Under the pieces are notes generated by a model. The model was not told the origin of the DNA. It saw nothing but the letters and a program-made list of their open reading frames with translations, and did not search any database. From positions 6,921,232 through 6,985,231 of the forward strand of contig CANTUZ010000014.1 of assembly GCA_947846985.1 (NCBI GenBank): DNA of 64,000 bases, written 5' to 3'. The stretch comes from Fratercula arctica (Eukaryota > Chordata > Aves > Charadriiformes > Alcidae). Shown here in pieces: positions 134 through 61,214 of the stretch (position 1 is the stretch's first letter; every line of letters begins with the position of its first letter). A program made the translations under genes and the position numbers.

Positions 134-389
134 CTGGAGTCGCTCAAGCGCTGGAATGGGGAGGGGGTGGCGTGGTGTGAGAAGGGGGTGCAGGTGCTGC
201 TCACGGCGGTGGGGGCCTTCGCCGCCTTCGGCCTCATGACCATCGCCATCGGCACCGACTACTGGCTCTACGCCCGCGCCTTCATCTGCAACACCAGCAA
301 CGCCTCGGGGGAGGACGCGGCCCACCGCGACCGCCGCGACCCCGGCGGCCTCACCCACTCCGGCCTCTGGCGGATCTGCTGCCTCGAAG
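134..389 (+). CDS. CACNG8: CACNG8 exon 1 (N terminus, TM1, first extracellular loop)
   Basis: Encodes ESLKRWN through CCLE and ends in phase 1 before a GTGGGG donor. The expected initiator is CTG at 134-136, with A at -3 and G at +4. No ATG precedes it in frame within the window. The next in-frame Met lies inside TM1 (GLMTIAIG) and would truncate it. Confidence 0.93.
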
Positions 390-14376: not shown

Positions 14377-14735
14377 GGGCACCCCCGGACCCCCCGGGAC
14401 CCCTGGGACACCCCCCCCCGGGGACCAGCACCCTCAACCGCAAGACCACCCCCGTCTAGGGGCACCCCCGGACCCCCCCAGGACCCCTGGGACCCCCCCC
14501 GGGGGACCAGCACCCTCAATGACAAGACCACCCCCCTCTAGGGGCACCCTCAGACCCCCCCGGGACCCCCCCAGGGACCCCCCCGGGGACCAGCACCCTC
14601 AACCTCAACACCAGCCCTGTCTAAGGGCATCCCTGGCTCCCCAGGGACCCCCCCAGGACCCCCCCAGACCCTCCTGGGACCCCCCCAGGGGACCAGCACC
14701 CTCAACGACAAGACCACCCCCCTCTAGGGGTGCCC
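14377..14735 (+). repeat. Tandem copies of the CACNG8 C-terminal coding end
   Basis: After the true stop, the segment ggggaccagcaccctcaacc with its following codons and stop recurs at about 14415-14462, 14500-14541, 14588-14632 and 14690-14728, in units of roughly 80-100 bp. Copies would read [21 protein letters not shown] or degenerate forms, each ending in a stop-like tag. They are in the 3' UTR. Confidence 0.88.
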
Positions 14736-18314: not shown

Positions 18315-21300
18315 GTAGGCCCGGCGGGGGGGGTCGGGGGGGGGGGGGGGGGGGCGTTTGACCCCCCCCCTCCGGGATGAGGGAGGGTGGAGGGGGGGCT
18401 CCGGTGGCCGCGTGGGGCCCTGTCCCGAGGGTGAGGGGCGGGGTCACGTGACAAGGCCTCACCACTCCCCTCCCGCGAGGTGTGGGGGGCCCGTGGTGGG
18501 TGAGACCATTCAATGGCGGGGGGGGGGGGGGGGGAATGGCTGTTGCCTGTCATGCCACGCCCCACTTTCTGCCAGGCCACACCCCCTTTCCGCCAGGCCC
18601 CGCCCCTCCGTCGACCCGTCCCCTGCGCGTGGAGCTGCGTGTGGGCGGGGCTTACGCGGGGAAGGGGCGGGGCTAAAACGGTTGGGGGCGTGGCCTTGGA
18701 CGGGTCTTTGCAGAAACGGGGCGTGGTTATACCAGAGAGGGCGGGGTTTTGCCGGAGGGGGCGTGGTTAAAGTTAAGGGGCGTGGTCAGAACCGAGGGGG
18801 CGGGGCTAGGACTCGGCTCTGGGTCTGTTTCCTGGGGCAGGGAGGGGGCGGGGCCTCTGGAGAGGGGGCGGGGCCAGGGGAAGTGGGCGGGGGCGGGTGG
18901 GGGGGGCGACAGCAGAGTTGTGACACCCACCCCCACCCACCCCCCCCCCCCTTCCCCCCGGGACCTCCCTAGTGCCCCCCGACCTGACGGCGGAGGAGCG
19001 GCTGGAGCTGGAGAGCATCCGGCGGCGCAAGCAGGAGCTGCTGGGGGAGATCCAGCGCCTGCGGGAGGAGCTGAGCGAGGCCATGAGCGAGGTGGAGGGG
19101 CTGGAGGCCAACGAGGGCAGGTACCTCCCAAATACCCCCTCCCAGGGCCCCCAGATACCCCCCCGAGACCCCAGAAACCCTCCCATGGCCCCCCGAGACC
19201 CCTGAAATCCTCCCAGGGCCCCCCAATACCCCCCCCGAGACCCCTGAAATCCTCCCATGGCCCCCAAATACCCCCCCGAGGCCCCAGAAACCCTTTCAGG
19301 ACCCCCAAATACCCCCCAAAGACCCTAGAAACTCTCCCAGGGCCCCTAAATACCCCTTCAGGGCCCCCAAATATCCCCCTGAGACCCCAGAAACCCTCCC
19401 AGGGCCCCCACATACACCCCAGCACCCACAAATACTCCTGCAGGAACACCATTCACCTGTGAGGCTCTCAAATATCTCCCCAGGACCCCTAAATACCCCC
19501 GAGACCCCCAAAACCCCTTCAGGGCCCCCAAATACCCCCCAAATGTCCCCCAGGACCCCCAGACATCTGCCTTGGGGTCCTCTGTACAGAGAGACCCCCT
19601 TCACCCACCAGGATGTACCTTCCCAGGCATGGAGAGACCCCCAAACTCTGGCCCTGAGACCCCAATGTGCCCCCTTGCTGCATGGGGTGGACCCAGACGC
19701 CCTGTGGACCCCCCCAAAATCTACCCCAGCATCCCTGAGTACCCCCTGACAACACCATGGTCCCACCTCTGGGGGCTTTGTGTCTTCTTAGTCTCTGTCA
19801 GGGCCCAGGGGACCACCAAAACCCTCCCCCAGAACTACCCCCCTGTCTCTGGGGACCCCAAAACTTCCCCTGAAGGTTCTGGGGAATCCCCCTAACCCTG
19901 GTTTATAACATACACCCCCCCCCCACCTTCAGCAAAACCCTCCAGAGGAACCGAAAGATGGGGATGGGCCGCAAGAAATTCAACATGGACCCCAAAAAGG
20001 TGAGGGGCTCCCAAACGCCACGTCGTCCCCACCCCCCAGCGTGGGGTTCCCGGATGCCTGGGTGTCGTCCCACCCCCACCCCCCGGGTGGTCCCTGATGG
20101 TTTTGGGGTGCAGGGGATCCAGTTCCTGGTGGAGAACGAGCTGCTGCGGCACACGGCCGAGGACATCGCCCGCTTCCTCTACAAGGGCGAGGGGCTCAAC
20201 AAGACGGCCATCGGCGACTACCTGGGCGAGAGGTGGGCTACCTGGGGGGGGGGGGGGGGGGGCTACCTGGGAGGGGGAGGGTCTTCCTGAAAGGGGGGGG
20301 AGCTTCGCCAAGGACCACCTGCCCCCCCAGAGATGTGACCGGCCCGTTGGTTTGAGCCTGGGGAGGGTCTGGGTGATTGACAGCGTGGTGGGCGGGGTTT
20401 ATTGGAAGGGGAGTGACTTTTTGGAAGGGGGAGTGGCTTCATGAGGGGGAGGGGCTTACTGGAAGGGGTGGGGCTTCCCCAAGGACCTCCCACCCACCCC
20501 CCCAGAGGTGGGAGCAGCCCCTTGGGTTGAGCTTGGAGGGCGTTGGGGTGATTGACAGCATGGTGGGTGGGGCTTCCTGGAAGGGGCGGGGCTTCCTGGG
20601 GGAGGGGCTTCATGAAATGGGTGTGGCTTTGTGAAAGGGGCGGGGCTTCCCCAAGGACCACCCACCCACCCCCCCCAGAGGTGGGAGCAGCCCCTTGGGT
20701 TGAGCTTGGAGGGCGTTGGGGTGATTGACAGCATGGTGGGCAGGGCTTCCTGGAAGGGGCGGGGCTTCCTGGGGGGAGGGGCTTCATGAAATGGGTGTGG
20801 CTTTGTGAAAGGGGCGGGGCTTCCCCAAGGACCACCCCCCCACCCCCCTCTCCAGGGATGGGAGCAGCCCCTTGGGTTGAGGCTGGGTGTCGGGCTGGGT
20901 GATTGACAGCGTGGTGGGCGGGGTTTAAGTGGGTGGGTCTCGGGGGGGTGGGCAGGGCTTGGTGGTGATTGACAGCTCGGTTCCGCCCCCCCCCCATCCC
21001 CAGGGAGGAGTTCAATATCGGGGTCCTGCACGCCTTCGTGGACCTCCACGAGTTCACGGACCTCAACCTGGTGCAGGCGCTGAGGTGAGGGGGCTGGGGG
21101 GGGCACTTGGGGGGCTGGGGGGGCTCTTGGCGGGGGGAGGGGGGGGGTTGGGAAGACACCTGGAGGGCGCTGGGGACTTTGGGGGGCATATTCAGGGCTC
21201 CAAGGAGGGTTAGGGACAGCCGGGAGGAGGACTGGGGGGTCTGGGGGATCCCTTGAAGATTTTTGAAGGGGCTCACGTGGAGTATTATGGGGGGGGGGGG

Positions 21301-24300
21301 TGGGGAGGTCCCAGGGAGGATTCTGGGGGTCCCAGGGAGGATTTTCAGGATCTGCTGGAGGATTTGGGGGGGATGATGGAGGGTTTGGGGGTCCTGGGGA
21401 GGATTTTGGGGGTCCCGGGAAGAATTTGAGGGATTTGTTGGAGGACTTGGGGATCTGATGGAGGATTTGGGGGTCCTGGGGATGATTTTGGGGGTCCCGG
21501 GAAGAATTTGAGGGATTTGTTGGAGGACTTGGGGATCTGATGGAGGATTTGGGGGTCCTGGGGAGGGTTTGGGGGTCCTGGGGATGATTTTGGGGGTCCC
21601 GGGAAGAATTTGAGGGATCTGTTGGAGGACTTGGGGATCTGATGGAGGATTTGGGGGTCCTGGGGAGGATTTTGGGGGTCCCGGGAAGAATTTGAGGGAT
21701 CTGTTGGAGGACTTGGGGATCTGATGGAGGATTTGGGGGTCCTGGGGAGGATTTGGGAGATCCTGGGGGGGGGGGGAGTGTTGGGGGCCCCGTGGAGGTT
21801 TGGGGGGCAGTGGAGGATTTGGGGTGCCCCCCTGTTCCGCCCCCTCCCCCAGGCAGTTCCTGTGGAGCTTTCGGCTGCCGGGGGAGGCGCAGAAGATCGA
21901 CCGGATGATGGAGGCCTTCGCCCAGCGCTACTGTCTCTGCAACCCCGGCGTCTTCCAGTGCACGGGTAGGGCCATGCTCCGCCCCCCCCCGGCCACGCCC
22001 GGCCACGCCCAGCCACCCTCCTCCCTCCCCCCGCCCCCCGCCATGTCCCCAAATGGGCCAGACGCCTGGCTGTCCCGTCCCCATTTCCCCCATGGCCGCT
22101 GGGGTCCCCCCGGGTGACCTGGATGCTGGTGTCCCCCCCCCTCCCATGGCCCCCCTGTACTGCCAGGGTTCTCTTGGGACCCCCCCTCTGGCTGTTGGGG
22201 TCCCCCTGCACACACCACCCCCCCTCCCCAAAAGTCACCTGGATGTTGGGGTTCCCCTGTGCCCTCCCTGTCTCTTGGGGTCCCCCCATGTTCCCCCCAG
22301 CTGCGGGGGGGTCCTCATGACCCCCCACATCTTTTGGGGGTCCCCTTTGCCACCTGGCTGTTGGGGTCCCCATCCCCTTGTGCCCGCCCCCCCGTATGTC
22401 GGGGTCCCCTGTACCCTCCATGCTATCAGGGTCCCCCCATCCCCTCGTGTCCCCCTGTGCTGTGGGGGTCCCCCTATGCCCCCCCCCAAGCTGTGGGGGT
22501 TTCCCCATGACCCGCCCCCCCCCATCTATTGGGATCCCCTTTGCCACCCCATCCCCTTGTTTTCTCACTGCTTTTGGGGTCACCCGCGTCCCCCTGTGCC
22601 ATCCCCCCCCCCCCCCCCCCCCCATCCCCTGGCTGTGGGGGTCCCCCCCCGTGACCCCCCCTGCCCCCAGACACGTGCTACGTCCTCTCCTTCGCCGTCA
22701 TCATGCTCAACACCAGCCTGCACAACCCCAACGTGCGGGACAAGCCCTCGGCCGAGCGCTTCGTGGCCATGAACCGCGGCATCAACGATGGCGGGGACCT
22801 GCCCGAGGAGCTGCTGCGGGTAGGGCGGGGCGTGGAGGGGCGGGGCTTGGAGGGAGGGTGGGGCCGTGGGGGTGGAGGGGTCAGGGATGGGAGAGACCGG
22901 GGGGGGCGTGGTCTGGGGAGGGGTGGGGCCTGGGGGCGGGGCTTGGAGGGAGGGTGGGGCCACGGGGGTGGAGGGGTCAGGGATGGGAGAGACCTGGGGA
23001 GCTGGGGGGGGGGGTAGTCTGGGGGGGGGGGGGGCCTGGGGGGCGGGGCTTGGAGGGAGGGTGGGGCCGTGGGGGGTGGAGGGAGCTGTGATGGGAGAGA
23101 CCTGGGGGAGCGGGGGGGGGGCGTGGCCTGGGGAGGGGTGGGGCCTGGGGGCGGGGCTTGGAGGGAGGGTGGGGCCACGGGGGTGGAGGGGTCAGGGATG
23201 GGAGAGACCTGGGGGAGCTGGGGGGGGGGGCGTGGCCTGGGGGGGGGTGGGGCCTGGGGCGGGGCTTGGAGGGAGGGTGGGGCCATGGGGGGGAGGGGTC
23301 AGGGATGGGAGAGACCGGAGGGGGCGTGGTCTGGGGAGGGGTGGGGCCTGGGGGCGGGGCTTGGAGGGAGGGTGGGGCCGTGGGGGTGGAGGGGTCTGTG
23401 ATGGGAGAGACCGGGGGGGGCGTGGTCTGGGGAGGGGTGGGGCCTGGGGGCGGGGCTTGGAGGGAGGGTGGGGCCATGGGGGTGGAGGGGTCAGGGATGG
23501 GAGAGACCTGGGGGAGCTGGGGGGGGGCGTGGTCTGGGGAGGGGTGGGGCCTGGGGGCGGGGCTTGGAGGGAGGGTGGGGCCACGGGGGTGGAGGGGTCA
23601 GGGATGGGAGAGACCTGGGGGAGCTGGGGGGTGGGGGGGTGTGGTCTGGGGAGGGGTGGGGCCTGGGGGCGGGGCTTGGAGAGAGGGTGGGGCCGTGGGG
23701 GTGGAGGGGTCAGGGATGGGAGAGACCTGGGGGAGCTGGGGGCGGGGGGGGGTAGTCTGGGGAGGGGTGGGGCCTGGGGGCGGGGCTTGGAGGGAGGGTG
23801 GGGCCATGGGGGGGGAGGGGTCAGGATGGGAGAGACCGGGGGGTGTGGCCTGGGGAGGGGTGGGGCCTGGGGGCGGGGCTTGGAGGGAGGGTGGGGCCGT
23901 GGGGGTGGAGGGAGCTGTGATGGGAGAGACCTGGGGGAGCTGGGGGGGGTGTGGCCTGGGGAGGGGTGGGGCCTGGGGGCGGGGCTTGGAGGGAGGGTGG
24001 GGCCACGGGGGTGGAGGGGTCAGGGATGGAGAGACCGGGGGGGGCGTGGTCTGGGAGGGTGGGGCCTGGGGGCGGGGCTTGGAGGGAGGGTGGGGCCATG
24101 GGGGTGGAGGGGTCAGGGATGGGAGAGACCTGGAGGAGCTGCTAGGGGGTGTGGTCTGGAAGGGGGCGTGGTCTGTAGGGGCGTGTCTTATCGGGGCGGG
24201 GCTTGGAGGGGTGATGGGGCCATGGGGGTGGAGGGGTTGGGGATGGGAGAGACGGGGGGGCGTGGTCTGGATGGGGGTGTGGTCTGGATGGGTGTAGGGC

Positions 24301-27300
24301 GGGGCCTGAGCAATGGGCTGGGGTGCAGTCTCGGGGGTGTGGCTTGAAGGGGTGTGGCCTGGAAGGGGGGGCAGGGCTTGTTGTGCTGTGGGCGGGGCCA
24401 GCGGCTGTGGGCGGGGCTTGTGGCTCTAGATGGGGCCGGTGGCTCTGTGGGTGGGGGGGTGGTTGTGGGCGGGGCTTGAGGTGCTGTGGGCGGGGCTGGT
24501 GGCTCTGTAGGCGGGGCTTGTGCTGTTGTGGGCGGGGCTTGTGCTGTTGTGGGCGGGGCTTGTGGTGCTGTGGGCATACAGACCTGGAGCCCTGGGTGGG
24601 GGGGGGGGGAGGGCGTGTGCTGCCCTAGGGGTGGGGTGGGTGGGTGTGGCCAAGGTGGGCGTGGCTTGGGCCTGACCCCGCCCTCTCTGCCCCCTCCCCA
24701 GAACCTGTACGAGAGCATCCGCAGCGAGCCCTTCAAGATCCCTGAGGACGACGGCAACGACCTGACCCACACCTTCTTCAACCCCGACCGCGAGGGCTGG
24801 CTGCTCAAGCTGGGTGAGCCACGCCCCCTCCCCGGCCACGCCCCCTCCCCGGCCACGCCCCTTCCCCCTGACCCCGCCCCCTCCCCTCCCCTGGGTCCTG
24901 TCTCTTCTCTGTCTCTGTCCCCTCTGCGCCTGCCCTGGGTCCCCGCTGCTCTTTATGGCCGTCCCCCCGCAAACTGGGCAAGAACCAGCTTCTCCCAGTA
25001 TCCCCCAGTCTGGCTCGGTCTCTCACGATATCTTCCCGGACCTTCCCAGTGCCCCCCAGTCCCGTCCCCCCCCCCCCAGTTCACTCCTGGATGCATCCCA
25101 GTGCCCCTCAGTCCTGCTCAGTCTCTCTCAATATATTCCTGGACCCTCCCAGTGCCCCCCAGTTTACCCTTGAATGCATCCCAGTGCCCCTCTGGACCTT
25201 CCCAGTGCCTCCCAGCTCTGCTCAGTCCCTCCCGATATCTTCCTGGACCTTCCCGGTGCCTCCCAGTTCATCCCTGGACCTTCCCAGTGCCTCCCAGTCC
25301 TGTTCAGTCCCTCCCCATGCCTCCTGGGGCCTTCCTAGTGCCCCCCAGTTCCTCTCTGGACCTTCCCAGTTCCTCACAGTGCCCCCAGATGCCCTCCCAG
25401 GACCCCCCCAGTTCCCTCCCAGTGCTCCCCAGTTCCCCCAGGGGTTCGCGGTGGGGGGGGGGGGGGGGGGGGAGGGGGGGCGGTTCCCGTGTGGACGTGA
25501 CTGACGTTTCCTCTCTCTCTTCCTCCGTCTGTCTGTCCCCGCCTGTCCCTCCCCGTCCCTGTCACCCCCCGGCCCCCCCCAATTCCGCCCACCCCCCCCA
25601 CCCCCGCTGCCGACGCCCGGCCCGGCCCCCCCAGGAGGTATGTACTGGGGTGGGTGGGGGGGCAACACCCCGGGACACCCCCCCCCCAAAAAAAAAACCC
25701 CACTGTGCCCCCCCCCCCCCCCCCCCAACCCCAGCATGTTTTGGGGCCTCCCAGGATGATCTGGGGCTTATGCCCCCCCCCCAAATCTATCTCCCCCCCC
25801 CCCCCCCCCCCCCCATCCCCTACCTCAATCAGTTCCCCCCGTCCCCAATTCCCCTCGGAACCCCCTCAAAATCCCTGTGGCTCCTTGGGGACCCCTGGAT
25901 CCCTCCTGAGCTCCCCCCCCCGCCCCCGGGTGTCATCCCCTTCCCTCCCCGACCCTCCTGCCCCCCCCAGCCCCCCCTGAGCCCCCCCTGTCCCCCCCCA
26001 GGCGGGCGGGTGAAGACGTGGAAGCGGCGCTGGTTCATCCTCACCGACAACTGTCTCTACTACTTCGAGTACACCACGGTGAGACCCCCCCCCGCCCCAA
26101 ACCCCCCCTCGGGGTCCCCCCAAACTCCCCCTTGGGCATCCCCAAACTGCCCAGGGGGGGCCCGATCCCCTCTACCCCCCCCCCCCAAACTCCTCTGGGA
26201 CCCCCTGAGTCCCAAATTGACTGGACTTTTTTCGGTACCTCAGGGTGATGACACCCTCCCCCCCCCCTCCCTCCCCCAGGGACCCCTTGGTTCTCTCTGG
26301 CCCCCCCTGACCCTGTTGGGGACCCCCTTATGCCCCCCCGCCCCTGGGGCTCCCAAAAGACCCCCCCATATCCCCCTGGACCCGCACTCCAGGGTCCCCT
26401 CTGAGCCCCTGGGAGCCCCCCCAAACCCCCAGGCACCCCCTTGGGACACCCCAACCCCTTGGTGTCCCCCGGAGACCCCCCCCCCCGAGTCCCTTGGACC
26501 CCCCCCAAACCCCCTGGACTTCCCCAGGGACCCCCCCCCAACCATTTAGGGCCCCCTGGACACCCCCAGGGACCCCCTTGAGCCTCTGGGGACCCCTCCA
26601 AACCCCCCCCTTGACATCCAGGGACCCCCCCCCAGGGTGTCCGCTGACCCCCCCAGGGCCCCCCTGAACCCCTTAGAAACCCCAGGGACCCTCCGAAGCC
26701 CTTGGGGGGGACACCCCCAGAGACACCCCTGACCCCCTGTGACCCCCCCCCCCCCAGGATAAGGAGCCGCGGGGCATCATCCCCCTGGAGAACCTGAGCA
26801 TCCGCGAGGTGGAGGACCCCCGCAAGCCGGTGAGTCCCCCCCGTGTCCCCCCCGGGCTCCCCCTGTGTCCCCCGTCCCCATCCCTGGATGTCCCAAGGAC
26901 CCCCTCCCCCAGATTTGGGGGGGGTCAGCTGTGCCCCCCATTTCCCCCCAACAAGGGTCTCTATTCCCCCCTGGGCTCCCCAATCCCCCCCATCCTTCCC
27001 TGTCCCCAACTCCCCCCTCAGCCCCCCACCCCCGCCCCCCCCCAGCCCCACCATTCCCCTTGTCCCCACGTGTCCCTGTGTCCCCCAGCCCCAGAACCCC
27101 CCCCACATTTTGGGGGCGCCAGCCGTACCCCCCCATCTGCTCCTCCATCTCCCCCCAACAAGGGGCTCTATTCCCCCCTGGGGTCCCCAATCCCCCCCAT
27201 CCTTCCCTGTCCCCAACTGCCCCCCCCCCAGCCCCACCATTCCCCTTGTCCCCACGTGTCCCTGTGTCCCCCAGCCCCAAGACCCCCCCACATTTTTGGG

Positions 27301-28520
27301 GGCGCCAGCCGTACCCCCCCATCTGCTCCTCCATCTCCCCCCAACAAGGGGCTCTATTCCCCCCTGGGGTCCCCAATCCCCCCCATCCTTCCCTGTCCCC
27401 AACTCCCCTCGCCCCCCCCCCACCCCCCCCACCCCCCCAGCCCCCCCAGCCTGACCCGTTGCCCCCCCCCCCAGCACTGCTTCGAGCTCTACATCCCCAA
27501 CAACAAGGGGCAGCTCATCAAGGCCTGTAAGACGGAGGCGGACGGGCGGGTGGTGGAGGGGAACCACGTCGTCTACCGCATCTCCGCCCCCACCCGCGAC
27601 CAGAAGGACGAGTGGATCAAATCCATCCAGTGAGCACCCCAAAACCCACCCCCCCCCCTCCCCGGCACCCCCAAATCCTCCTGGGGGGTCCTCACCCCCC
27701 CCCACCCCCCATTCCCCCAACCAGGGGCTTCCTATGGGGTGGCGATGCGGGAAGATGCTGTGGAGCATCTGGGGGGACCCGGGTGTCTTTTGGGGGGGGG
27801 GGGGGTGTGCAAAGGGAGGGGGCACCCCAAAACCCCCTCTTGGGGACCCTCAACCCCCCCAGGCACCCCCCAAATTCCCCCGGGGGGTCCTCAAACCCCG
27901 CTTTGGGTCTTTCTATGGGGCGGGGATGCTCCAAGATGCTGTGGAGCATCTGGGGGGATCCAGGCGTCTGGGGGGGGGGGGGTGCAAAGGGAGGGACCAC
28001 TCCAAACCTCCCCCCCCCCCCCCCGGAGACCCCAGACCCCTCTGGGGACCCCCCCCCAATCCTCCTGGGGACTCTGAACCCCCCCAGGCACCTCCAAATT
28101 CCCCTGGGGGGGTCCTCAGACCCCTCCTTGGGGCTTCCTGTGGGGTGGGGATGCTCCAAGATGCTGTGGAGCATCTGGGGGGGTGCACAGGGAGGGGCCA
28201 CTCCAAACTCCCCCCCCTCCATGGACCCCCCAACCCCCCCGGCGACCCCCCCAATCCTCCTGGGGCCCCTCAACCCCCCCCGGAGACCCCTGAATCCTCC
28301 CAGGGTCCTCAAAGTCCCCCAGGGCTTCCTGTGGGGCGGGGGTGCAGGAAGAGGCTGTGGGGCATCTGGGGGGTCCCGGGGGTCCCGGGGCGGGGGGGGG
28401 CATCCCAAAACGCCTTCGTGGCCCCCCCGCAGGGCGGCGGTGAGCGTCGACCCCTTCTACGAGATGTTGGCCGCCCGCAAGAAGCGCATCTCGGTGAAGA
28501 AAAAGCAGGAGCAGCCCTGA
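18296..28520 (+). CDS. CYTH2: CYTH2, cytohesin-2 (ARNO), ARF guanine-nucleotide exchange factor
   Basis: Exons: 18296-18314, 18973-19120, 19933-19999, 20114-20232, 21004-21084, 21853-21965, 22671-22819, 24702-24813, (25635-25637), 26002-26078, 26758-26829, 27475-27629, 28433-28520. The total is 1200 nt, or 399 codons plus stop, and 400 with the microexon, the human lengths. Every phase closes and there are no frame breaks. Order: coiled coil (about 10-62), Sec7 exchange domain (about 72-201) with the glutamic finger E156 in [12 protein letters not shown], linker, PH domain (about 259-376) with [20 protein letters not shown], and a polybasic tail [15 protein letters not shown]. The protein loads GTP on ARF1/ARF6 at membranes recruited by phosphoinositides. 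The start MEDGVY matches the family. Its neighbour LMTK3 is also adjacent in human 19q13.33. Confidence 0.97.
18320..18970. repeat. CYTH2 intron 1: G runs and GC-box-like repeats
   Basis: A G-run near 18320-18355 is followed by scattered copies of ggggcgtgg and gggcggggc up to about 18895, on the island side of the promoter. No exon seen. Confidence 0.7.
18973..19120 (+). CDS. CYTH2: CYTH2 exon 2 (coiled coil)
   Basis: Encodes [20 protein letters not shown] to LEANEG, the heptad-rich dimerisation and partner-binding segment. Acceptor CCCTAG, donor GTACCT. Confidence 0.97.
19125..19560. repeat. CYTH2 intron 2 array
   Basis: Units such as cccccgagaccccagaaacc and tcccagggcccccaaatacc. The rest of the intron to 19932 is non-repetitive sequence without a recognisable gene. 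Confidence 0.85.
19933..19999 (+). CDS. CYTH2: CYTH2 exon 3
   Basis: 67 bp encoding [20 protein letters not shown] and KK, leading into the Sec7 domain. Acceptor CTTCAG, donor GTGAGG. Confidence 0.97.
20114..20232 (+). CDS. CYTH2: CYTH2 exon 4 (Sec7)
   Basis: Encodes [20 protein letters not shown] to AIGDYLGE. Acceptor GTGCAG, donor GTGGGC. Confidence 0.97.
20233..21003. repeat. CYTH2 intron 4: about 185-bp units
   Basis: Three to four copies carrying ggcggggcttccccaagga, gcagccccttgggttgagct and ggtgattgacagcatggtgg. Between the donor and about 20290 there are two extra copies of ggctacctggg, like the end of exon 4 (gactacctgggcgagag). Confidence 0.85.
21004..21084 (+). CDS. CYTH2: CYTH2 exon 5 (Sec7)
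   Basis: 81 bp encoding [20 protein letters not shown] to VQAL. Acceptor CCCCAG, donor GTGAGG. Confidence 0.97.
21290..21790. repeat. CYTH2 intron 5: roughly 80-100-bp units
   Basis: Copies contain gggtcccgggaagaatttga, gggatctgttggaggacttg and ggatctgatggaggatttgg. Not coding. Confidence 0.88.
21853..21965 (+). CDS. CYTH2: CYTH2 exon 6 (Sec7, glutamic finger)
   Basis: Encodes [20 protein letters not shown] to GVFQCT. The Glu of LPGEAQ falls at residue 156, the catalytic finger of ARNO. Confidence 0.97.
21970..22665. repeat. CYTH2 intron 6 degenerate array
   Basis: Irregular units like ggctgttggggtccccctg with C runs. No gene seen. Confidence 0.75.
22671..22819 (+). CDS. CYTH2: CYTH2 exon 7 (Sec7)
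   Basis: Encodes [20 protein letters not shown] to GDLPEELLR, including the ARF-groove motif with NTSLHNPNV. Donor GTAGGG; the downstream array resembles this exon end. Confidence 0.97.
22820..24580. repeat. CYTH2 intron 7: array of roughly 100-130-bp units plus GGGCGGGGCTTGTG units
   Basis: Ten or more copies with ggcggggcttggagggaggg, tggaggggtcagggatggga and gagacctgggggagctgggg; from about 24320 it changes to gtgggcggggcttgtg units. The unit includes a degenerate copy of the exon 7 end and donor. Confidence 0.9.
24702..24813 (+). CDS. CYTH2: CYTH2 exon 8 (linker, start of PH domain)
   Basis: Encodes [20 protein letters not shown] to GWLLKL plus one base of the glycine motif. Confidence 0.97.
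24960..25445. repeat. CYTH2 intron 8 CCCAGTGCCCCCCAGT array
   Basis: Units such as ggaccttcccagtgcctccc, ending about 190 bp before the microexon. Confidence 0.85.
25635..25637 (+). CDS. CYTH2: CYTH2 3-nt alternative microexon (diglycine/triglycine switch)
   Basis: A lone GAG flanked by a perfect CCCCCCAG acceptor and a GTATGT donor, downstream of a strong pyrimidine tract (ctctctcttcctccgtctgt). Inclusion turns KLGGRVK into KLGGGRVK without a frame change. Cytohesins are known to use a 3-nt GAG microexon here; the triglycine form loses strong preference for PIP3 over PIP2. Confidence 0.85.
26002..26078 (+). CDS. CYTH2: CYTH2 exon 9 (PH domain)
   Basis: Encodes [20 protein letters not shown] to EYTT, with the basic phosphoinositide-binding residues K-x-W-K-R-R. 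Confidence 0.97.
26085..26750. repeat. CYTH2 intron 9, low-complexity C-rich DNA
   Basis: Degenerate gggacccccccc units throughout. No exon or gene recognised. Confidence 0.7.
26758..26829 (+). CDS. CYTH2: CYTH2 exon 10 (PH domain)
   Basis: 72 bp encoding [20 protein letters not shown] and PRKP. Confidence 0.97.
26930..27420. repeat. CYTH2 intron 10: about 180-bp units, 2-3 copies
   Basis: Copies share tccccccaacaaggggctct, ccccatccttccctgtcccc and cattccccttgtccccacgt. Confidence 0.88.
27475..27629 (+). CDS. CYTH2: CYTH2 exon 11 (PH domain)
   Basis: Encodes [20 protein letters not shown] to DEWIKSI; the first residue is His where human has Asn. Donor GTGAGC splits the codon for Gln. Confidence 0.97.
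27700..28400. repeat. CYTH2 intron 11: about 200-bp units with a hairpin
   Basis: Four copies; three contain the inverted repeat gatgctgtggagcatc (27752, 27932 and 28159 area), and a fourth is degenerate near 28350. Confidence 0.85.
28433..28520 (+). CDS. CYTH2: CYTH2 exon 12 (C-terminal polybasic region)
   Basis: Encodes [20 protein letters not shown] to KKKQEQP, TGA at 28518-28520. Confidence 0.97.
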
Positions 28521-31509: not shown

Positions 31510-31719
31510 TCAGGGGCAGGGGTCGAAGGGCAGGGTGGTGACCCCCCCGTGCAGCTCCAGCCCCCCCTCGGCCCAGGCCAGCAGGTCGCCGGCCGGGCGG
31601 GCGCCGCAGGTGGCCACCGCCGCCACCTCCCCCGCGTCCAGCACCCGGCTCCAGAGGTGGAACTCCGAGATCTCCCCCACGAAGGCCTGAGTGGCGTCGA
31701 AGCGCCCGCCCAGCGCGTC
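31510..31719 (-). CDS. Pentraxin exon 5 (C terminus)
   Basis: 70 codons in one frame: DALGGRFDATQAFVGEISEF to GGVTTLPFDPCP and TGA at 31512-31510. QEQD at the exon 4/5 join supplies Ca-binding residues typical of pentraxins, and the late Cys is conserved with NPTX1/2. Confidence 0.93.
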   Translation of the reverse strand, partial: DALGGRFDATQAFVGEISEFHLWSRVLDAGEVAAVATCGARPAGDLLAWAEGGLELHGGVTTLPFDPCP

Positions 31720-34700
31720 CTGGGGACACGGGGGGACACGGGGACGTGGCACCCGTGTGGCGCGGGGACACGGCACCCGCTGGGCACGGGGACACGGGGA
31801 CACGGGGACACGGCACCCGCTGGGCATGGGGACACGGGGACACGGGGACATGGCACCAGTGTGGCACAGGGACATGGGGACATGGCACCCCCTGGGCATG
31901 GGGACACAGGGACATGGTACCCACTGGGCATGGGGACACGGGGACATGGCACCCGTGTGGCGCGGGGACACAGCACCCACCAGGCACGGGGACATGGGGA
32001 CACGGGGACACGGCACCCACTGGGCACGGGGACATGGGGACACGGGGACATGGCACCCGTGTGGCGCAGGGACACGGGGACACGGCACCCACTGGGCACA
32101 GGGACACGGGGACATGGCACCAGTGTGGCACAGGGACATGGCACCCGCTGGGCATGGGGACATGGGGACACGGCACCAGTGTGGCACGGGGACACGGCAC
32201 CTGCCAGGCACGGGGACATGGGGACACGGGGAGACGGGGACACAGCACCCGCTGGGCATGGGGACATGGGGACCTGGCACCAGTGTGGCACAGGGACACG
32301 GGGACACGGCACCCACTGGGCATAGGGACATGGGGACCTGGCACCAGTGTGGCACAGGGACACGGGGACACAGCACCCGCTGGGCATGGGGACATGGGGA
32401 CCTGGCACCAGTGTGGCACAGGGACACGGGGACATGGCACCCGCTGGGCATGGGGACATGGGGACACAGGGACACGGCACCCGCTGGGCACAGGGACACA
32501 GGGACACGGGGACACGGCACCAGTGTGGCACGGGGACATGGGGACATGGCACCCACTGGGCACGGGGACATGGGGACACGGGGACATGGCACCCGTGTGG
32601 CGCAGGGACATGGGGACACGGCACCCACTGGGCACGGGGACATGGGGACACGGGGACATGGCACCCGTGTGGCGCAGGGACATGGGGACACGGCACCCAC
32701 TGGGCACGGGGACATGGGGACACGGGGACATGGCACCTGTGTGGCGCAGGGACATGGGGACACGGCACCCACTGGGGATGGGGACACAGGGACCTGGCAC
32801 CAGTGTGGCATAGGAACATGGGGACACGGCACCTGCTGGGCATGGGGACACGGGGACATGGCACCCACTGGGCATAGGGACATGGGGACCTGGCACCAGT
32901 GTGGCACGGGGACATGGCACCCGCTGGGCATGGGGACATGGGGACACGGCACCCGCTGGGCACAGGGACACGGGGACACGGGGACGTGGGGACACGGCAC
33001 CCGCCTGGCACAGGGACACGGGGACACGGCACCCGTGTGGCGCAGGGATGTGGCACTGGTGTGGATGGGGACAGAGGGCGTGTCCCCCGTGACCCCAGGG
33101 TGCCCCCGTGACCCCGGGGAGTTCCCGTGACCCCAGGGAGCCCAGTGTCCCCTGTACCCCCCCACCGTGTGTGTCCCCCCGTATCCCCCCGTCCCCCCCC
33201 CGTATGTCCCCCCCGTGTCCCCCATCCCACCCCGTGTGTCCCCCCCCGTGTCTCCCCCTGTGTCCCCTGTCCCTCCCCCCATGTGCCCCCCCGTGTGTCC
33301 CCCCATCTCCCCCCCGTGTGTGTGTCCCCCTGTGACCCCGTCCCCCCCGTCCCCCCCCCGTGTTCCCTGTCCCCTCCCCGTGCCCCCCCCCGTGCCCCCC
33401 TGTGTGTGTCCCCCGTCCCCCCATCCCCCCCGTCTCCCCCCCCGTGTCCCCCCCCCGTGTCCCCCCGTCCCACCCCATGTGTGTGTCCCCCCCCGTGTCC
33501 CGTGTCCCCCCCCCGTGTCCCCCCGTCCCACCCCATGTGTGTCCCCCCCCCCGTGTGCCCCCCCCTGTCCCCCCGTCCCACCCCATGTGTGTCCCCCCCC
33601 CGTGTCCCGTGTCCCCCCCCCCCGCCGTACCTGCTCCTGCCCGAGCACGAGGACGCCGCGGGGGCGCAGGGGGTGTCCGGCCGCCAGCCCCCCCCCGCCC
33701 CCCCGGGGGACCCCATCCTGGAAACTGCGCCAGGTGCCCCCCCGCCGCCGCCCAGGTGACACAGACGTGCTGCCAGCGCCCCGGCGACGGGGACAGCGCC
33801 AGCGGCACCGCCTGGGGGGGGGACGGGGGGTCGGGGGGGGGCACACGGTCCCCGGCCCCACAGACCCCCCCCATAGCCCCTCAGAGCCCACCCATCACCC
33901 CCCCAGACCCCCCCAGCCCCAGTCCCACATAACCCCCCCAGGCCCCCCCATCACCCCCCATCACCCCCCATCCCTCCCCCATCATCCCCCCCACCCCCCA
34001 TGCCTGCCCCCCCACCCCCCATCACCCCCCATCCCTCGCCCCCCACCCCCCCATCACCCCCCATCCCCCCCCCATCCCTCCCCCCACACCCCCCATCACT
34101 CCTCCATCACCCCCCCATCCCTCGCCCCCCACCCCCCCATCCCTCCCCATCACTCCCCCCCATCCCCCCCATCCCTTCCCGCTCCCCCCCATCACCCCCC
34201 ATCACCCCCCCATCCCTCGCCCCCCACCCCCCCATCACCCCCCCATCACTTCCCCATCACTCCCCCATCCCTCCCCCCCATCACCCCCCCATCCCTTCCC
34301 ACTCCCCCCCCATCACTCCCCCATCACCCCCCATCCCTCCCCCCCCCACCCCCATCACCCCCCATCACCCCCCCATCACCCCCCCATCACCCCCCATCCC
34401 TCCCCCCCCACCCCCCGTCACCCCCCCGTCACCCCCCATCACCCCCCATCACCCCCCATCCCTCCCCCCCCACCCCCCATCACCCCCCATCACCCCCCCC
34501 ATCACCCCCCCATCACCCCCCATCCCTCCCCCCCACCCCCCATCACCCCCCCATCACCCCCCACATCACCCCCCCATCCCTCGCCCCCCACCCCCCCATC
34601 ACCCCCCCATCACTCCCCATCACTCCCCCCATCCCTCCCCCCCATCACCCCCCCCCATCCCTTCCCACCCCCCCCCACCCCCATCACCCCCCCACCCCCA

Positions 34701-37700
34701 TCACTCCTCCATCACCCCCCCATCCCTCCCCCCCATCACCCCCCATCCCTCCCCCCCCATCACCCCCCCATCCCTTCCCACTCCCCCCCCATCACCCCCC
34801 ATCACCCCCCATCCCTCCCCCCCCCGCCCCCATCCCTCCCCCCCCCCCCATCACCCCCCCCCTCCCCCCCCAACCTGGTCGTCCACCAGCAGCTCCATGG
34901 GCCGCCCCCCCAGGCCAGCAGCACCAGCTCGTTGGGCTGCCCGGGGGCGGCGTAGGAGAAGGGGGTGCCGAGGGCGGGGGCCCCCCCGGGGCGCAGCCAG
35001 AGGCAGGCGGAGAGGGCCCGCAGCGCCCGCCGCACCGTGCCCCGCGCCCGCGCGAACATGTAGTTGGTGCGGAGGGGGAAGGCCACGCGGAAACCCCCCC
35101 GCGCGCCTGCGGGGACCCCCCACCCCCACCCCCCCCCGACCTGCGTCACACGGTGGGGGGGGGGGGGGGGGGCAACGACACCCCCCTGGGCCCCGCGGGG
35201 ACCGGAGCTGGGGGGGGGGGTCCCAAAGCTCCGCGTCCCCTGGGGGGCCCAATACCGGGGGTCCCATCCCTGGGGGTCCCAAAGCCCCCCGTCCCCTGGG
35301 GGGCCCAATACCGGGGGTCCCATCCCCGGGGGTCCCATCCCTGGGGGTCCCCAATCCCTCTGTCCCCTGGGGGGCCCAATACCGGGGGTCCCATCCCCGG
35401 GGGTCCCAAAGCCCCCCGTCCCCTGGGGGGCCCAATACTGGGGGTCCCATCCCTCCATCCCTCCGGCCCTGGGGGGTCCCATCCCTGGGGGGTCCCAATC
35501 CCCCTGTCCCCAAGGGAACCCCATCCCTGGGGGGACAAGTCCTGGGGGTCCCCAATCCCTCTGTCCCCTGGGGGTCCCATCCCTGGGGGGTCCCTTCCCT
35601 CCCATCTCTGGGAGGTCCCATCCCTGGGGGTCCCAATCTTGGGGGTCCCCAAGCCCCCTGTCCCCGAGGGACCCCATCCCTGGGGGGTCCCAATCATTGG
35701 GGGTGGGGTGGGGGGTCCCATCCTTCTGTCTCCAAGTGTCCCCAGCCCTGGGGGGTTCCCAGCCTTAGGGGTCCCCAACCTTCCGTCCCCAGGTGTCCCC
35801 ATCCCCAGGGGTCCCCATCCCTGGTGGTCCCCGGGGGTCCCCGTCCCCGGGGGTCCCTGTCCTTCCGTCCCCAGGTGTCCCCATCCCCAGGGGTCCCCAT
35901 CCCTGGTGGTCCCCGGGGGTCCCCGTCCCCGGGGGTCCCTGTCCTTCCGTCCCCAGGTGTCCCCATCCCCAGGGGTCCCCATCCCTGGTGGTCCCCGGGG
36001 GTCCCCGTCCCCGGGGGTCCCTGTCCTTCTGTCCCCAGGTGTCCCCGACCCCTCGTGTCCCCATCCCCGGGTGTCCCCATGGTCCCCGACGGTCCCCATC
36101 CCTGGGGGTCCCCACCGCTGGTGTCCCCATCCCAGGGGTCCCCAACCCCTGGTGTCCCCAACCCCAGGTGTCCCCCCCCCCTCCCCGCCCCGGGGGTCCC
36201 CGTCCCTCCCCTGTCCCCTCACCCTTGTGCTTGTCCTGGGGGTCCTGGGGGTCCCCGTGCTCCTCGGGGGCGTCGTGGTCCTCCTCCTCCTCCTCCTCCT
36301 CCCGGTGGGCCTCGGGGTCGCCGTGGCGATGGCCGTGGGCCCGGGGATGCTGGGGGTGGTTGCCGTGGAGACGGGCGTGCTTGCTGTGGTCCCCGTGGTG
36401 GTTGCCGTGGTTGTCGTAGTGGTTGCCATGGAGATGGGTGTGGTGGTTGCCATGGCGATCCTCGAAGGGGTGGCCGGGGAGGTGGTTGTGCTTGCCGTGG
36501 TCCCCGTGGGGGTCGCCATGGGGACCGTGGTAGTGGTTGCCATGGAGGATGCCGTGGGGGTTGCCGTGGTCGCCGGCCTTGCTGTGGTTGCCATGGCGAT
36601 CGAGGGGCTCGCCGTGGTCACCGTGGTGACCGTGGGGGTCGCCAGGGGGGATGCTGTGGGGCTCGGCGTGGTCGCTCAGCTTGCCGTGGTGACCGTGGAG
36701 ACCATCGTGGTGGTTGCCATGGAGACCCTGCTGGGGGTTGCCATGGAGGATGCCGTGGGGGTTGCCGCGGTCCCCGGCCTTGCCGTGGTCGCCGTGGTGA
36801 CCGTGGTGGTTGCCATGGAGACCCTCGTGGTGGTCGCCATGCTTCTCGTGGTCGCCGTGGTGACCGTGGTGGTTGCCATGGAGACCCTCGTGGTGGTCGC
36901 CATGCTTCTCGTGGTCGCCGTGGTGACCGTGGTGGTTGCCATGGAGACCCTCGTGGTGGTCGCCATGCTTCTCGTGGTCGCCGTGGTGACTGTGGTGGTT
37001 GCCATGGAGGTTCTCATGATGGTTGCCATGCTTCTCGTGGTCGCCGTGGTGACCATGGTGGTTGCCATGGCTGCCGTGATGGTTGCCATGGTGGTTGCCA
37101 TGGTCGCCGTGATGCTTGCCGTGGTCGCCGTGGTGGTTGCCGTAGTGGCCGCCGTGGTGGTCCCCGTGCTTGAGGTGGTGGTCGCTGTGGTGGCCGTGCT
37201 CGTGGCCGTGGTGGCCACCGTGGTGGTGGCCGTGGTGGTCGCCGTGGGGGTGGCTGCCGTTGCCGTGGTGACGGAGCTGCAGCTCCAGCAGCCCGATCTT
37301 CTTCTGCAGCGCCTCCCGCAGCCCCGACACGTTGCGGCTCTGCTGGGGGGGAGCGTCACCCCTCCGGACCCACAGCCGGACCCACAACCTGCCCCCCAAC
37401 CTGCCCCACAGACCCGCCCTGACCCACAGCCTGCCCCACAGACCCTCCCTGACCCACAGCCTGACCCCCAACCTGCCCCACAGACCCTCCCTGACCCACA
37501 ACCTGCCCCACAGACCCGCCCTGACCCACAGCCTGACCCACAACCTGCCCCACAGACCCACCCTGACCCACAACCTGACCCACAGACCCTCCCTGACCCA
37601 CAGCCTGACCCCCAACCTGCCCCACAGACCCTCCCTGCCCCACAGCCGGACCCACAACCTGCCCCACAGACCCCCCCTGCCCCACAACCTGCCCCACAGA

Positions 37701-39708
37701 CCCTCCCTGACCCACAGCCTGACCCACAGCCTGACCCACAGACCTGCCCTGACCCACAGCCTGACCCACAACCTGCCCCACAGCCCCCTCCCTGACCCAC
37801 AACCTGCCCCACAGCCCCCTCCTGCCCCACAACCTGCCCCACAGACCCTCCCTGACCCACAGCCTGACCCACAGCTCCCTCCTGCCCCACAACCTGCCCC
37901 CCAGACCCTCCCTGCCCCACAGCCTGACCCACAGCTCCCTCCTGCCCCACAACCTGCCCCCCAGACCCTCCCTGCCCCACAGCCTGCCCCACAGCCCCCT
38001 CCCTGCCCCACAACCTGCCCCACAGCCCCCTCCCTGACCCACAACCTGCCCCACAACCTGCCCCACAGCCCCCTCCCTGCCCCACAACCTGTCCCAGACC
38101 CCCATCCACCCCCCCAGCCCCCCATCTTGCCCCACAGACCCCCCCCCAACCTGCCCCCCAGCCCCCATCCAGCCCCTTTCCTGCCCCCCCCATTCCCTCC
38201 CTGCCCCCCAAGTGCCCCCATTCCCCCCCCCCGGGGTATATTTAGCCCAAGGGCGGCCCCGGCGCTGCCCCGTTAATCCCCCCCCCGCCCCCCCGGGGTT
38301 AATCAGCGGCGGGTTAATGAGGGCGGGGGGGGGGGGGGGGGGGCACACAGGCATCCGGGCCCCCCCCTCCCCCCCCCTTAAAGCCACCAGCTGGGCCCCA
38401 AAGAGGATCAAGGGACAAAGCCCGGGGGGGGGGGGGGGGGGGCGGGCAGACGCCTGTGTCCCTCCCAGCCCCTCCCCCCCCGGGCTGTTGCACCAGGGGG
38501 GTGTTGCACCAGGGGGTGTTGCACCGGGGGGTGTTGCACCAGGGGGGTGTTGCACGGGGGGGTGTTGCACCGGGGGGTGTTGCACCAGGGGGGTGTTGCA
38601 CGAGGGGGTGTTGCACCAGGGGGGTGTTGCACCAGGGGTTGTTGCACCAGGGGGGTGTTGCACAAGGGGGTGTTGCACCGGGGGGTGTTGCACCAGGGGG
38701 GTGTTGCACCGGGGGGTGTTGCACCAGGGGGTGTTGCACCAGGGGATGTTGCACGAGGGGGTGTTGCAGCAGGGGGTGTTGCATGGGGGGGTGTTGCACA
38801 ACGGGGGTGTTGCACCGGGGGGTGTTGCACGGGGGGGTGTTGCACGAGGGGGGTGTTGCACGAGGGGGGTGTTGCACCAGGGGGTGTTGCACGAGGGGGT
38901 GTTGCACCAGGGGGTGTTGCACCAGGGGATGTTGCACCAGGGGTGTGTGTTGCACCGGGGGGGGGGTGTTGCACGAGGGTCCGGTGCACAGGGAGGGGGG
39001 TGTGTGTTGTGTGCAAAGTGGGGGGGGGGGAGGTCGCAGGGAGACGTTGGATGAGGGGGGGGGGCGACGCCCGAGGACGGTGGTGAAAAGGGAGCGGGGC
39101 ACGAGGCCGGCGCCGCACGAGGAGGTCGCGCACGAGGATGGTGCCCCCAGGAAGCGCCGCACGAGGCCGGGGGGGGGGGGGGCCGTCGCACACCCCCATT
39201 TCCCCCCCACCCACCCCCCCCCCACACCCCCCCCCCCCCCCCCATCCTCACCTGCAGCTGCTGCAGCCGCTGCCGCAGCCCCTGCAGCGCCCGCTGCGCC
39301 CCGGCCCCTCGTGCGGCGTCCTCGTGCGAGGCCATGGCTCCTTCCTCCTCCTCCTCCTCCTCATCCTCATCCTCCTCATCCTCCTCGTGGCCGGGGGGGT
39401 CCCAAATCCTCCCGTCCCCCCCCCGGGCCCTGCAGCGCCGCAGTTGCGCCGCCAGCTCCAGCGCCGCCTCCCGCTGCTGCACCAGCGCCTCCCGCAGCCG
39501 CAGGATGGTGCCCCGCGAGCCCTCGTGCAAATCCTCGTGCGAGGGCCGCGGCGGGGGGCGGGGGCGGGGGCGGGGGGGGGGGGCCGGGGGCGCAGGCCGG
39601 GTCCAGCTCCGGGGGGAGGGGGGTGCAGACGAAGCGGGGGAGGGGCTCGGCGCCCCCCCCCAGCAGCACCCCCAGGGCCAGCAGGGCCAGGGCACGGGGC
39701 ACGGGCAT
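31510..39708 (-). CDS. Histidine-rich neuronal-pentraxin-family gene (fourth NPTX-type locus)
   Basis: Exons: 39708-39252, 37342-36223, 35106-34875, 33811-33631, 31719-31510, about 730 codons against roughly 430 in NPTX1/2. Exon 1: signal peptide MPVPRALALLALGVLLGGG, then RFVCTPLPPEL and a coiled coil ILRLREALVQQREAALELAA, as in NPTX1/2, then an acidic run. Exon 2 adds NVSGLREALQKKIGLLELQL and a long His-rich segment. Exons 3-5 are a pentraxin domain: FPLRTNYMFAR, GTPFSYAAPGQPNELVLLAW, GRWQHVCVTW, GVLVLGQEQ, GRFDATQAFVGE, terminal Cys. The five-exon layout and boundaries match NPTX genes. Family role: secreted multimers that cluster AMPA receptors. Exons 1, 3 and 4 each need a 1-nt correction at G/C runs (about 39560-39590, 34905-34911, 33737-33743). 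No closer paralogue assignment is possible by eye; it is none of NPTX1, NPTX2 or NPTXR. Confidence 0.88.
31725..33080. repeat. Pentraxin intron 4 ggggacacggcacccgctgg array
   Basis: Units such as cgctgggcatggggacatg and caccagtgtggcacagggac, beginning within a few bases of the exon 5 acceptor and running 1.3 kb. Confidence 0.92.
33140..33625. repeat. Pentraxin intron 4 CCCCGTGTCCCCCCGTCCCA array
   Basis: Units such as cccaccccatgtgtgtcccc up to the exon 4 donor. No gene. Confidence 0.9.
33631..33811 (-). CDS. Pentraxin exon 4 (pentraxin signature)
   Basis: Encodes AVPLALSPSPGRWQHVCVTW, then FQDGV and GVLVLGQEQ. The signature H-x-C-x-T-W is present, but the last Ser/Thr of the family pattern is Ala. 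One indel in the C7 run at 33737-33743 is needed. Confidence 0.9.
33880..34870. repeat. Pentraxin intron 3 CCCCATCACCCCCCATCCCT array
   Basis: About 1 kb of cccatcacc and ccatccctccccc units, almost pure C/A/T, filling the intron. Confidence 0.92.
34875..35106 (-). CDS. Pentraxin exon 3 (pentraxin domain, N-terminal part)
   Basis: Encodes RGGFRVAFPLRTNYMFARAR to PMELLVDDQ. Joining NELVLLAWGG to PMELLVDDQ needs one extra base in the C7 run at 34905-34911; exon length also falls one short of a closed frame. Confidence 0.9.
35220..36210. repeat. Pentraxin intron 2 gggggtcccatccctgggg array
   Basis: Irregular units; in 35860-36030 longer 70-80-bp repeats with ccccatccccaggggtcccc appear. No exon recognised. 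Confidence 0.9.
36223..37342 (-). CDS. Pentraxin exon 2: coiled coil plus giant His-rich segment
   Basis: 1120 nt, open throughout, from acceptor CCCCCAG to donor GTGAGG. It is entered in phase 0 and left in phase 1, exactly what exons 1 and 3 need. After SRNVSGLREALQKKIGLLEL it runs for over 300 residues of HGDHHGNHHG-type sequence with Asp, Gly, Asn, Lys, Glu and few hydrophobics, then EEEEEEED and DKHKG. Sequons NVS and NGS lie near its start. It replaces the second half of the coiled coil of other neuronal pentraxins. Metal (zinc) binding is inference from composition. Confidence 0.88.
36775..37050 (-). repeat. In-frame 63-bp coding minisatellite in the His-rich exon
   Basis: Four near-identical 63-bp units, with gcttctc at 36841, 36904, 36967 and 37030. 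On the - strand each encodes 21 residues including HGDHEKHGDHHEGLHGNHHG. The frame is kept in every copy. Confidence 0.9.
37365..38100. repeat. Pentraxin intron 1 CTGACCCACAACCTGCCCCA array
   Basis: Units such as cctgccccacagaccctccc, starting 20-30 bp upstream of the exon 2 acceptor on the - strand. Confidence 0.92.
38480..38985. repeat. Pentraxin intron 1 TGTTGCACCAGGGGG array
   Basis: About 25-30 copies of a 17-19-bp unit tgttgcaccaggggggt with variant last bases. Confidence 0.93.
39252..39708 (-). CDS. Pentraxin exon 1 (signal peptide, N-terminal Cys, coiled coil, acidic run)
   Basis: ATG at 39708-39706; donor GTGAGG at 39251. After a hydrophobic leader it carries RFVC, DPAC and QLRRC cysteines comparable to those that link neuronal pentraxins into multimers, then [16 protein letters not shown]. 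The 457-nt length is one off a closed frame, in G/C runs near 39560-39590. Confidence 0.87.

Positions 39709-41944: not shown

Positions 41945-61214
<19,270 letters not shown>

Follow-up and report, generated by a model that had tools for sequence, protein, structure and literature searches.

A putative fourth neuronal pentraxin lineage with histidine-rich linkers in a GC-rich locus of Fratercula arctica

The genome assembly of the bird Fratercula arctica (GCA_947846985.1) holds, at positions 6,921,232 to 6,985,231 of the forward strand of contig CANTUZ010000014.1, a stretch of 64 kb that was analyzed here as a whole and is called the window below. Its minus strand carries a five-exon pentraxin gene (39708-31510) placed between CYTH2 and an LMTK gene. 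This gene falls, together with proteins from rays to birds, into a clade separate from NPTX1, NPTX2, and NPTXR. We consider it probable that a joint reading holds, in which the gene belongs to an ancient fourth lineage of neuronal pentraxins that arose from the two whole-genome duplications, its protein would be a synaptic organizer with a histidine-rich linker, and the breaks in its reading frame are assembly errors.

A separate clade of neuronal pentraxins

The five exons are joined by GT/AG borders in phases 0, 1, 0, and 0 (Table 1), at what we take to be the intron positions of the neuronal pentraxin family. Exon 1 begins with MPVPRALALLALGVLLGGG, and the motif RFVCTPLP occurs in it along with a coiled-coil-like piece; the N-terminal part of the protein has three cysteines and coiled-coil-like pieces. 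Of the signal peptide, coiled coil, and pentraxin domain in the original prediction, the first two appear as a signal-peptide-like start and coiled-coil-like parts, and the third was confirmed as a domain that matches Pfam PF00354 (Pentaxin) at E 2.4e-27 and the human NPTX1 and NPTX2 structures in the PDB at E 2.4e-71 (6ype) and E 1.5e-70 (9lad), the next family following at 6.5e-23. These values rule out chance open frames in GC-rich DNA. The domain is nearest to NPTX1/NPTX2, and not to CRP, SAP, or PTX3. PTX3 and PTX4 likewise combine a long N-terminus with a pentraxin domain, but PTX3 is far from the window protein by score (E 1e-19 vs 1e-71). No match named PTX4 was present among the matches listed, and the PTX4 sequence was not compared directly.

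Three protein searches yielded 291 proteins, of which 156 belong to the fourth clade and 135 do not. Judged by their names, the search, and the tree, the latter comprise about 124 on the NPTXR side and 11 on the NPTX1 side. They include no known full-length NPTX2, for which the human domain is the sole representative; in the search seeded with P0106, the best 120 of 1358 matches were named NPTXR or had no telling name, and none was named NPTX2. A domain tree of 45 rows combined a selection of the 291 proteins with the window gene and two domains from human PDB entries, with Limulus and PTX3 excluded. It recovered the fourth clade with 27 rows, including the window and the birds, at a support of 100/98, and joined NPTX2 and NPTXR at 99/94. 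Placing the birds with NPTX1, NPTX2, NPTXR, or NPTX2 plus NPTXR was rejected by the approximately unbiased (AU) test (p = 0.0024, 0.0021, 0.0072, and 0.0029, respectively), and a fourth clade without the birds, a grouping defined post hoc from the tree, gave p = 0.032. Placements of the birds with the reptile members (p = 0.19; full length 0.139) or with Alligator (p = 0.289) were not rejected. When the birds were removed and outgroups included, the fourth clade was again obtained (98/98). The full-length tree of 40 rows, from which four domain-only rows and the partial or short models of Patagioenas, Passer, and Naja were left out, returned the fourth clade with two birds at 100/100, and grouping these two birds with NPTX1 or NPTXR gave p = 0.0002 each. 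The trees and the AU tests (p 0.002-0.007) thus bear out the earlier claim that the gene is not a recent copy nested in NPTX1, NPTX2, or NPTXR. The fourth clade lies nearer to NPTX2 plus NPTXR than to NPTX1 (94/67; grouping with NPTX1 p = 0.0348), the branching order among the four neuronal pentraxins being weakly resolved.

The pentraxin-domain phylogeny, put forward with the original prediction as a check, places other sauropsids and fishes in the same gene lineage. Its members were found in three birds, Alligator, turtles, lizards, and snakes, and further in frogs, salamanders, lungfish, coelacanth, Polypterus, paddlefish, teleosts, and rays. Judging from these sequences, the window gene represents a fourth neuronal pentraxin lineage that would be as old as jawed vertebrates, was kept in rays, ray-finned and lobe-finned fishes, amphibians, reptiles, and birds, and was apparently lost in mammals. 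No named mammalian member was present among the best 120 of 1307 matches, two of the 120 being nameless, and in another search the mammalian proteins among the 120 listed of 174 matches were only NPTX1 and NPTXR. The bird proteins themselves fall outside the best 120 of 1307, so a fast-evolving mammalian member could have been missed. A Heterodontus protein among the 120 listed (P0277) groups beside NPTX1, outside the fourth clade. Database entries such as si:dkey-283b15.2, si:dkey-14o18.2, and the frequent “neuronal pentraxin-1-like” or “-2-like” belong to the same clade and are named after other paralogues or clones.

NPTX1, NPTX2 (Narp), and NPTXR resemble the fourth lineage, as far as its N-terminus is a putative coiled coil, in a coiled-coil N-terminus, and further in the C-terminal pentraxin domain, Ca2+-site residues, and cysteines. 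The alignment shows that the window protein retains the N of QPNE, LGQEQD, GGRFDATQ, the C in CLWLR, HVCVTW, and VATC, and the last cysteine; the residues forming the Ca2+ sites are presumed from CRP and SAP. Apart from its own clade and its histidine-rich linkers, the fourth lineage differs from the three in two features of its C-terminus. Aligned rows carry the motif ELHGG (ELRGG in the ray Hemitrygon), except for two snake rows that deviate at the domain ends, whereas the counterpart is EIYGG in human NPTX1, DVFGG in human NPTX2, and EAFGG in chimpanzee NPTXR. Moreover, the protein ends one residue after the last cysteine in 133 of the 156 clade proteins (18 not scorable), compared with 1 of the 135 outside (2 not scorable). 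A structure model of the budgerigar protein (P0002) contains helices at residues 41-73 and 122-140 at low overall confidence (predicted local distance difference test, pLDDT, 53.5), and its best PDB matches are again 6ype and 9lad, which adds little to the sequence match.

Histidine-rich linkers

A histidine-rich linker is the clearest trait of the fourth lineage. Proteins were scored by the maximum number of histidines in any 60-residue stretch before the domain, with a threshold of at least 9; 155 of the 156 clade proteins were scorable, one being too short (fewer than 60 residues before the domain). The threshold was reached by 128/155 clade members (median 17) and by 0/135 proteins outside (median 3, maximum 7). 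The linkers of exons 1 and 2 were measured in 29 of 33 rows; the landmarks are absent from Protopterus, Latimeria, Hemitrygon, and Pristis, and that of NPTXR_Pan is doubtful. The first linker is the richest in Alligator, squamates, and amphibians (19-30% His), the second in the window, Melopsittacus, and turtles (11-34%), and both are rich in the ray-finned fish rows (14-34%). The weakest row is the turtle Emydura with 10 and 11%, compared with 0-4% in the seven NPTX1 and NPTXR rows that were measured. Repeat motif and linker position vary by lineage, and the histidine density persists. Since the density outlasts changes in sequence and place, we read it as a sign of selection for composition.

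Exon 2 of the window gene (1120 bp) is a single open frame of about 373 codons, of which 121 encode histidine, giving a second linker with 34% His; 63-bp tandem units lie inside it at 36784-37070. All three frames of this minus-strand array (36223-37342) are largely open, the alternative readings being Thr/Ala-rich and Pro/Arg-rich, and the sparrow model P0084 starts with a Thr-rich reading. A high-copy array of 15-bp units occupies 38482-38963 in intron 1.

The locus and its neighbors

The window is gap-free, has a GC content of 70%, and is rich in tandem repeats (155 rows scoring at least 200). The original prediction placed the pentraxin gene between CYTH2 and LMTK3. The CYTH2 side stood by the score of the Sec7 part, for which ARNO/cytohesin-2 reaches 207 bits vs 178 for cytohesin-1; cytohesin-3 is the top row overall (227.6 bits) owing to a longer chain with three matching stretches. 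The other neighbor is an LMTK kinase (LMTK3 6seq, E 2.1e-53, next 1.3e-15), but the search did not tell LMTK3 from its paralogues. No LMTK1 or LMTK2 chains were in the comparison list, and the choice within the family therefore depends on the general sequence of LMTK3 and on place, LMTK3 being the likeliest of the three. An open piece at 49582-49671 is probably part of the same gene. Beyond CYTH2 lies CACNG8 (gamma-8, E 7.7e-64; next paralogue gamma-2, 3.8e-43), which ends about 17 kb from the pentraxin gene. CACNG8, the one-frame exon 2 with its 121 His codons, and the histidine-rich linker had gone unmentioned in the original prediction.

Table 1. Coordinates of the pentraxin exons and neighboring genes in the window
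Feature	Position	Strand	Content
Exon 1	39252..39708	-	Start codon, signal-peptide-like stretch, and conserved Cys motif, followed by coiled coil 1 and an acidic linker; frame break
Exon 2	36223..37342	-	Coiled-coil piece QSRNVSGLREALQKKIGLLELQL, then histidine-rich linker; fully open; 121 His
Exon 3	34875..35106	-	Pentraxin domain, first part; frame break at G7 run 34911-34905
Exon 4	33631..33811	-	Pentraxin domain, middle, up to LGQEQ; frame break at G7 run 33743-33737
Exon 5	31510..31719	-	Pentraxin domain end, LELHGG motif; last Cys, then one residue and stop
CYTH2 (cytohesin-2) exons	19979..28520	+	One flank of the pentraxin gene; end about 28520
LMTK kinase exons, most likely LMTK3	50417..58382	-	Other flank of the pentraxin gene
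CACNG8 (TARP gamma-8) exons	200..14376	+	Next gene beyond CYTH2

In human, NPTX1 presumably lies near CYTH1 and AATK, NPTX2 near LMTK2, and NPTXR near CYTH4 and CACNG2. With human places assumed in this way, CACNG8 and CYTH2 are the paralogues expected on the 19q13 branch, which supports the fourth lineage as the fourth product (ohnolog) of the two whole-genome duplications. The original prediction had taken the gene for the missing member of this quartet. A clade of its own across jawed vertebrates and these two neighbors speak for that assignment and make it the most likely one, while the weak branching order (94/67) does not settle it. CYTH2, LMTK3, CACNG7, and CACNG8 are found in a table of genes that were predicted to be missing in chicken and later found by RNA sequencing (PMC5470226), and “pentraxin” and “nptx” have no occurrences in that paper.

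CACNG8 itself is laden with repeats. A 51-bp minisatellite of about 161 copies spans 458-8720 (+) between its first two exon pieces, and a high-copy array of 67/96-bp units lies in an intron at 11037-12118. The C-terminal coding end including the stop is tandemly repeated at 14338-14727 (+) with a period of 82-103 bp, the five altered copies of the coding end reading TTPV, TTPV, TTPL, TSPV, and TTPL.

Alternative readings and possible function

A number of observations weigh against the joint reading. Within the fourth clade, the birds sit with the ray-finned fishes (80/34) and not with the reptiles. Their branch measures about 1.0 (1.01) changes per column in the domain and full-length trees, and G, A, R, and P make up 42-49% of their domains vs 24-29% in the nine others printed. 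FastTree with 125 rows and a Limulus plus PTX3 outgroup placed the birds outside all neuronal pentraxins (89), and FastTree placed one ray with NPTX1/2/R; this topology was rejected as a long-branch effect after comparison with the mixture-model trees. The position equivalent to NP2 W419 is Trp in no fourth-clade row printed, but Leu in the window and most clade rows and Met, His, Tyr, Phe, or Arg in some. As for the linker, 27/155 clade members stay below nine histidines, two rays having only 7 and 8 per 60 residues; a large part of the remaining low scorers may be short automatic models. A codon-position test on the His repeat of the window, in which third positions are C-saturated, gave no signal of selection at the amino acid level. 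Finally, of the five exons in correct phase that the original prediction described, the number, borders, and phases stood and the intact frame did not, since it is interrupted once each in exons 1, 3, and 4. Three breaks in five exons are the pattern of a dying gene too; in the house sparrow protein P0084, exons 3 and 4 likewise contain shifted stretches, and the CYTH2 and LMTK exon pieces inspected showed no break, leaving one of three neighboring genes affected.

Decay of the window gene is possible. The breaks, the unbroken CYTH2 and LMTK pieces, the sparrow protein, and the very fast bird branch would all suit a relic, in which a pentraxin that works in other vertebrates is decaying and broken in the window species. 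We regard this as unlikely, because every break is found at or beside a G/C run of 7-12 and exon 2, whose 1120 bp contain one run of six, stays unbroken. The exon 1 break maps to the interval from 39583 to 39539, in or next to the C12 run at 39583-39572, and G/C runs of length 7 alone occur 306 times in the window. CACNG8 provides a control for homopolymer errors, as its last exon similarly shifts frame between 14141 and 14200, among C11, C7, and C9 runs. Further arguments against a relic are the Ca2+-site and cysteine residues retained in the window protein, its 84% identity to band-tailed pigeon (Patagioenas, P0001) in the pentraxin domain, and the absence of breaks in exons 3 and 4 from the proteins of Patagioenas and the budgerigar Melopsittacus (P0002); P0001 has a repeated stretch resembling a read-through intron. 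The breaks are thus most likely homopolymer errors of the assembly and not a sign of gene death. Far less probable still is a translocation, by which a rapidly evolving copy of NPTX1, NPTX2, or NPTXR would have reached the CYTH2-LMTK3 interval. The “-1-like” and “-2-like” names common among the relatives hint at such a copy, but each placement is rejected by the AU tests, on which a copy of NPTX2 or NPTXR was dropped, and the histidine-rich linker, ELHGG, and the short C-terminus are common to the fourth clade and not to the NPTX1 and NPTXR rows compared.

The origin of the histidines is the point at which an alternative comes closest. They could be a minisatellite that drifts in a permissive linker and has no metal or pH role, and the three open frames of the window array, a locus packed with minisatellites, and the codon-position result all point that way. 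Against drift, high histidine is seen repeatedly, in fishes and amphibians as well as in a crocodilian and squamates, with motifs that differ and in two different linkers, and is missing from the NPTX1 and NPTXR rows measured; drift is a serious contender, to which we nevertheless assign the smaller chance. The linker might also act like that of histidine-rich glycoprotein, which when protonated binds heparan sulfate or acidic lipids, and so fix the oligomer in the matrix depending on pH and zinc. Dense histidine, often with acidic residues, recalls that protein as well as the His-rich loops of zinc transporters. However, the motifs differ from the repeat of histidine-rich glycoprotein, the likeness lies in sequence composition only, and we know of no domain that the fourth lineage shares with histidine-rich glycoprotein or zinc transporters. 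This role seems rather improbable, even more so than the relic.

Neuronal pentraxins gather glutamate receptors at synapses. NP1 and NP2 bind the amino-terminal domain of GluA4 at micromolar affinity, two Ca2+ sites are present in the NP1 domain, larger NP2 oligomers are driven by Ca2+, and W419 of NP2 is near the probable receptor site (PMC12799932). By analogy with NPTX1 and NPTX2, we propose that the fourth protein would be secreted at synapses and form disulfide-linked coiled-coil oligomers, whose Ca2+-bound pentraxin domains may gather AMPA-type receptors. More tentatively, the flexible histidine-rich linker might bind Zn2+ (or Cu2+) at resting pH and release the metal on acidification of the cleft, so that zinc and pH would tune compaction or clustering of the oligomer. 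The bird gene sits in a GC-rich locus laden with minisatellites, and its pentraxin domain has evolved very fast.

A review counts the neuronal pentraxins as a family of three (PMC8866268), “neuronal pentraxin-1-like” is used for brown trout (PMC8770521), and “neuronal pentraxin-2-like” for coral (PMC7006924). Among open-licence papers, best matches judged by titles and the starts of abstracts included none on a fourth neuronal pentraxin, and none was found under si:dkey-283b15.2 or si:dkey-14o18.2. The terms nptx, lmtk3, and cyth2 do not occur in PMC10416458 and PMC13192246.

It is conceivable, although we hold this only tentatively, that a fourth organizer is standard in non-mammalian jawed vertebrates, that its fast-turnover and persistently histidine-rich linker makes clustering sensitive to zinc and pH, and that mammals discarded this branch. 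If the fourth lineage is as proposed, mammals would differ in their receptor-clustering machinery from the fish, frog, and bird models. Its linker, of a type not seen in the examined NPTX1 and NPTXR proteins, would then allow a direct test of zinc or pH tuning of clustering. TARPs and neuronal pentraxins both act on AMPA receptors, and in the window a gene of each kind, CACNG8 and the neuronal pentraxin, lie about 17 kb apart.

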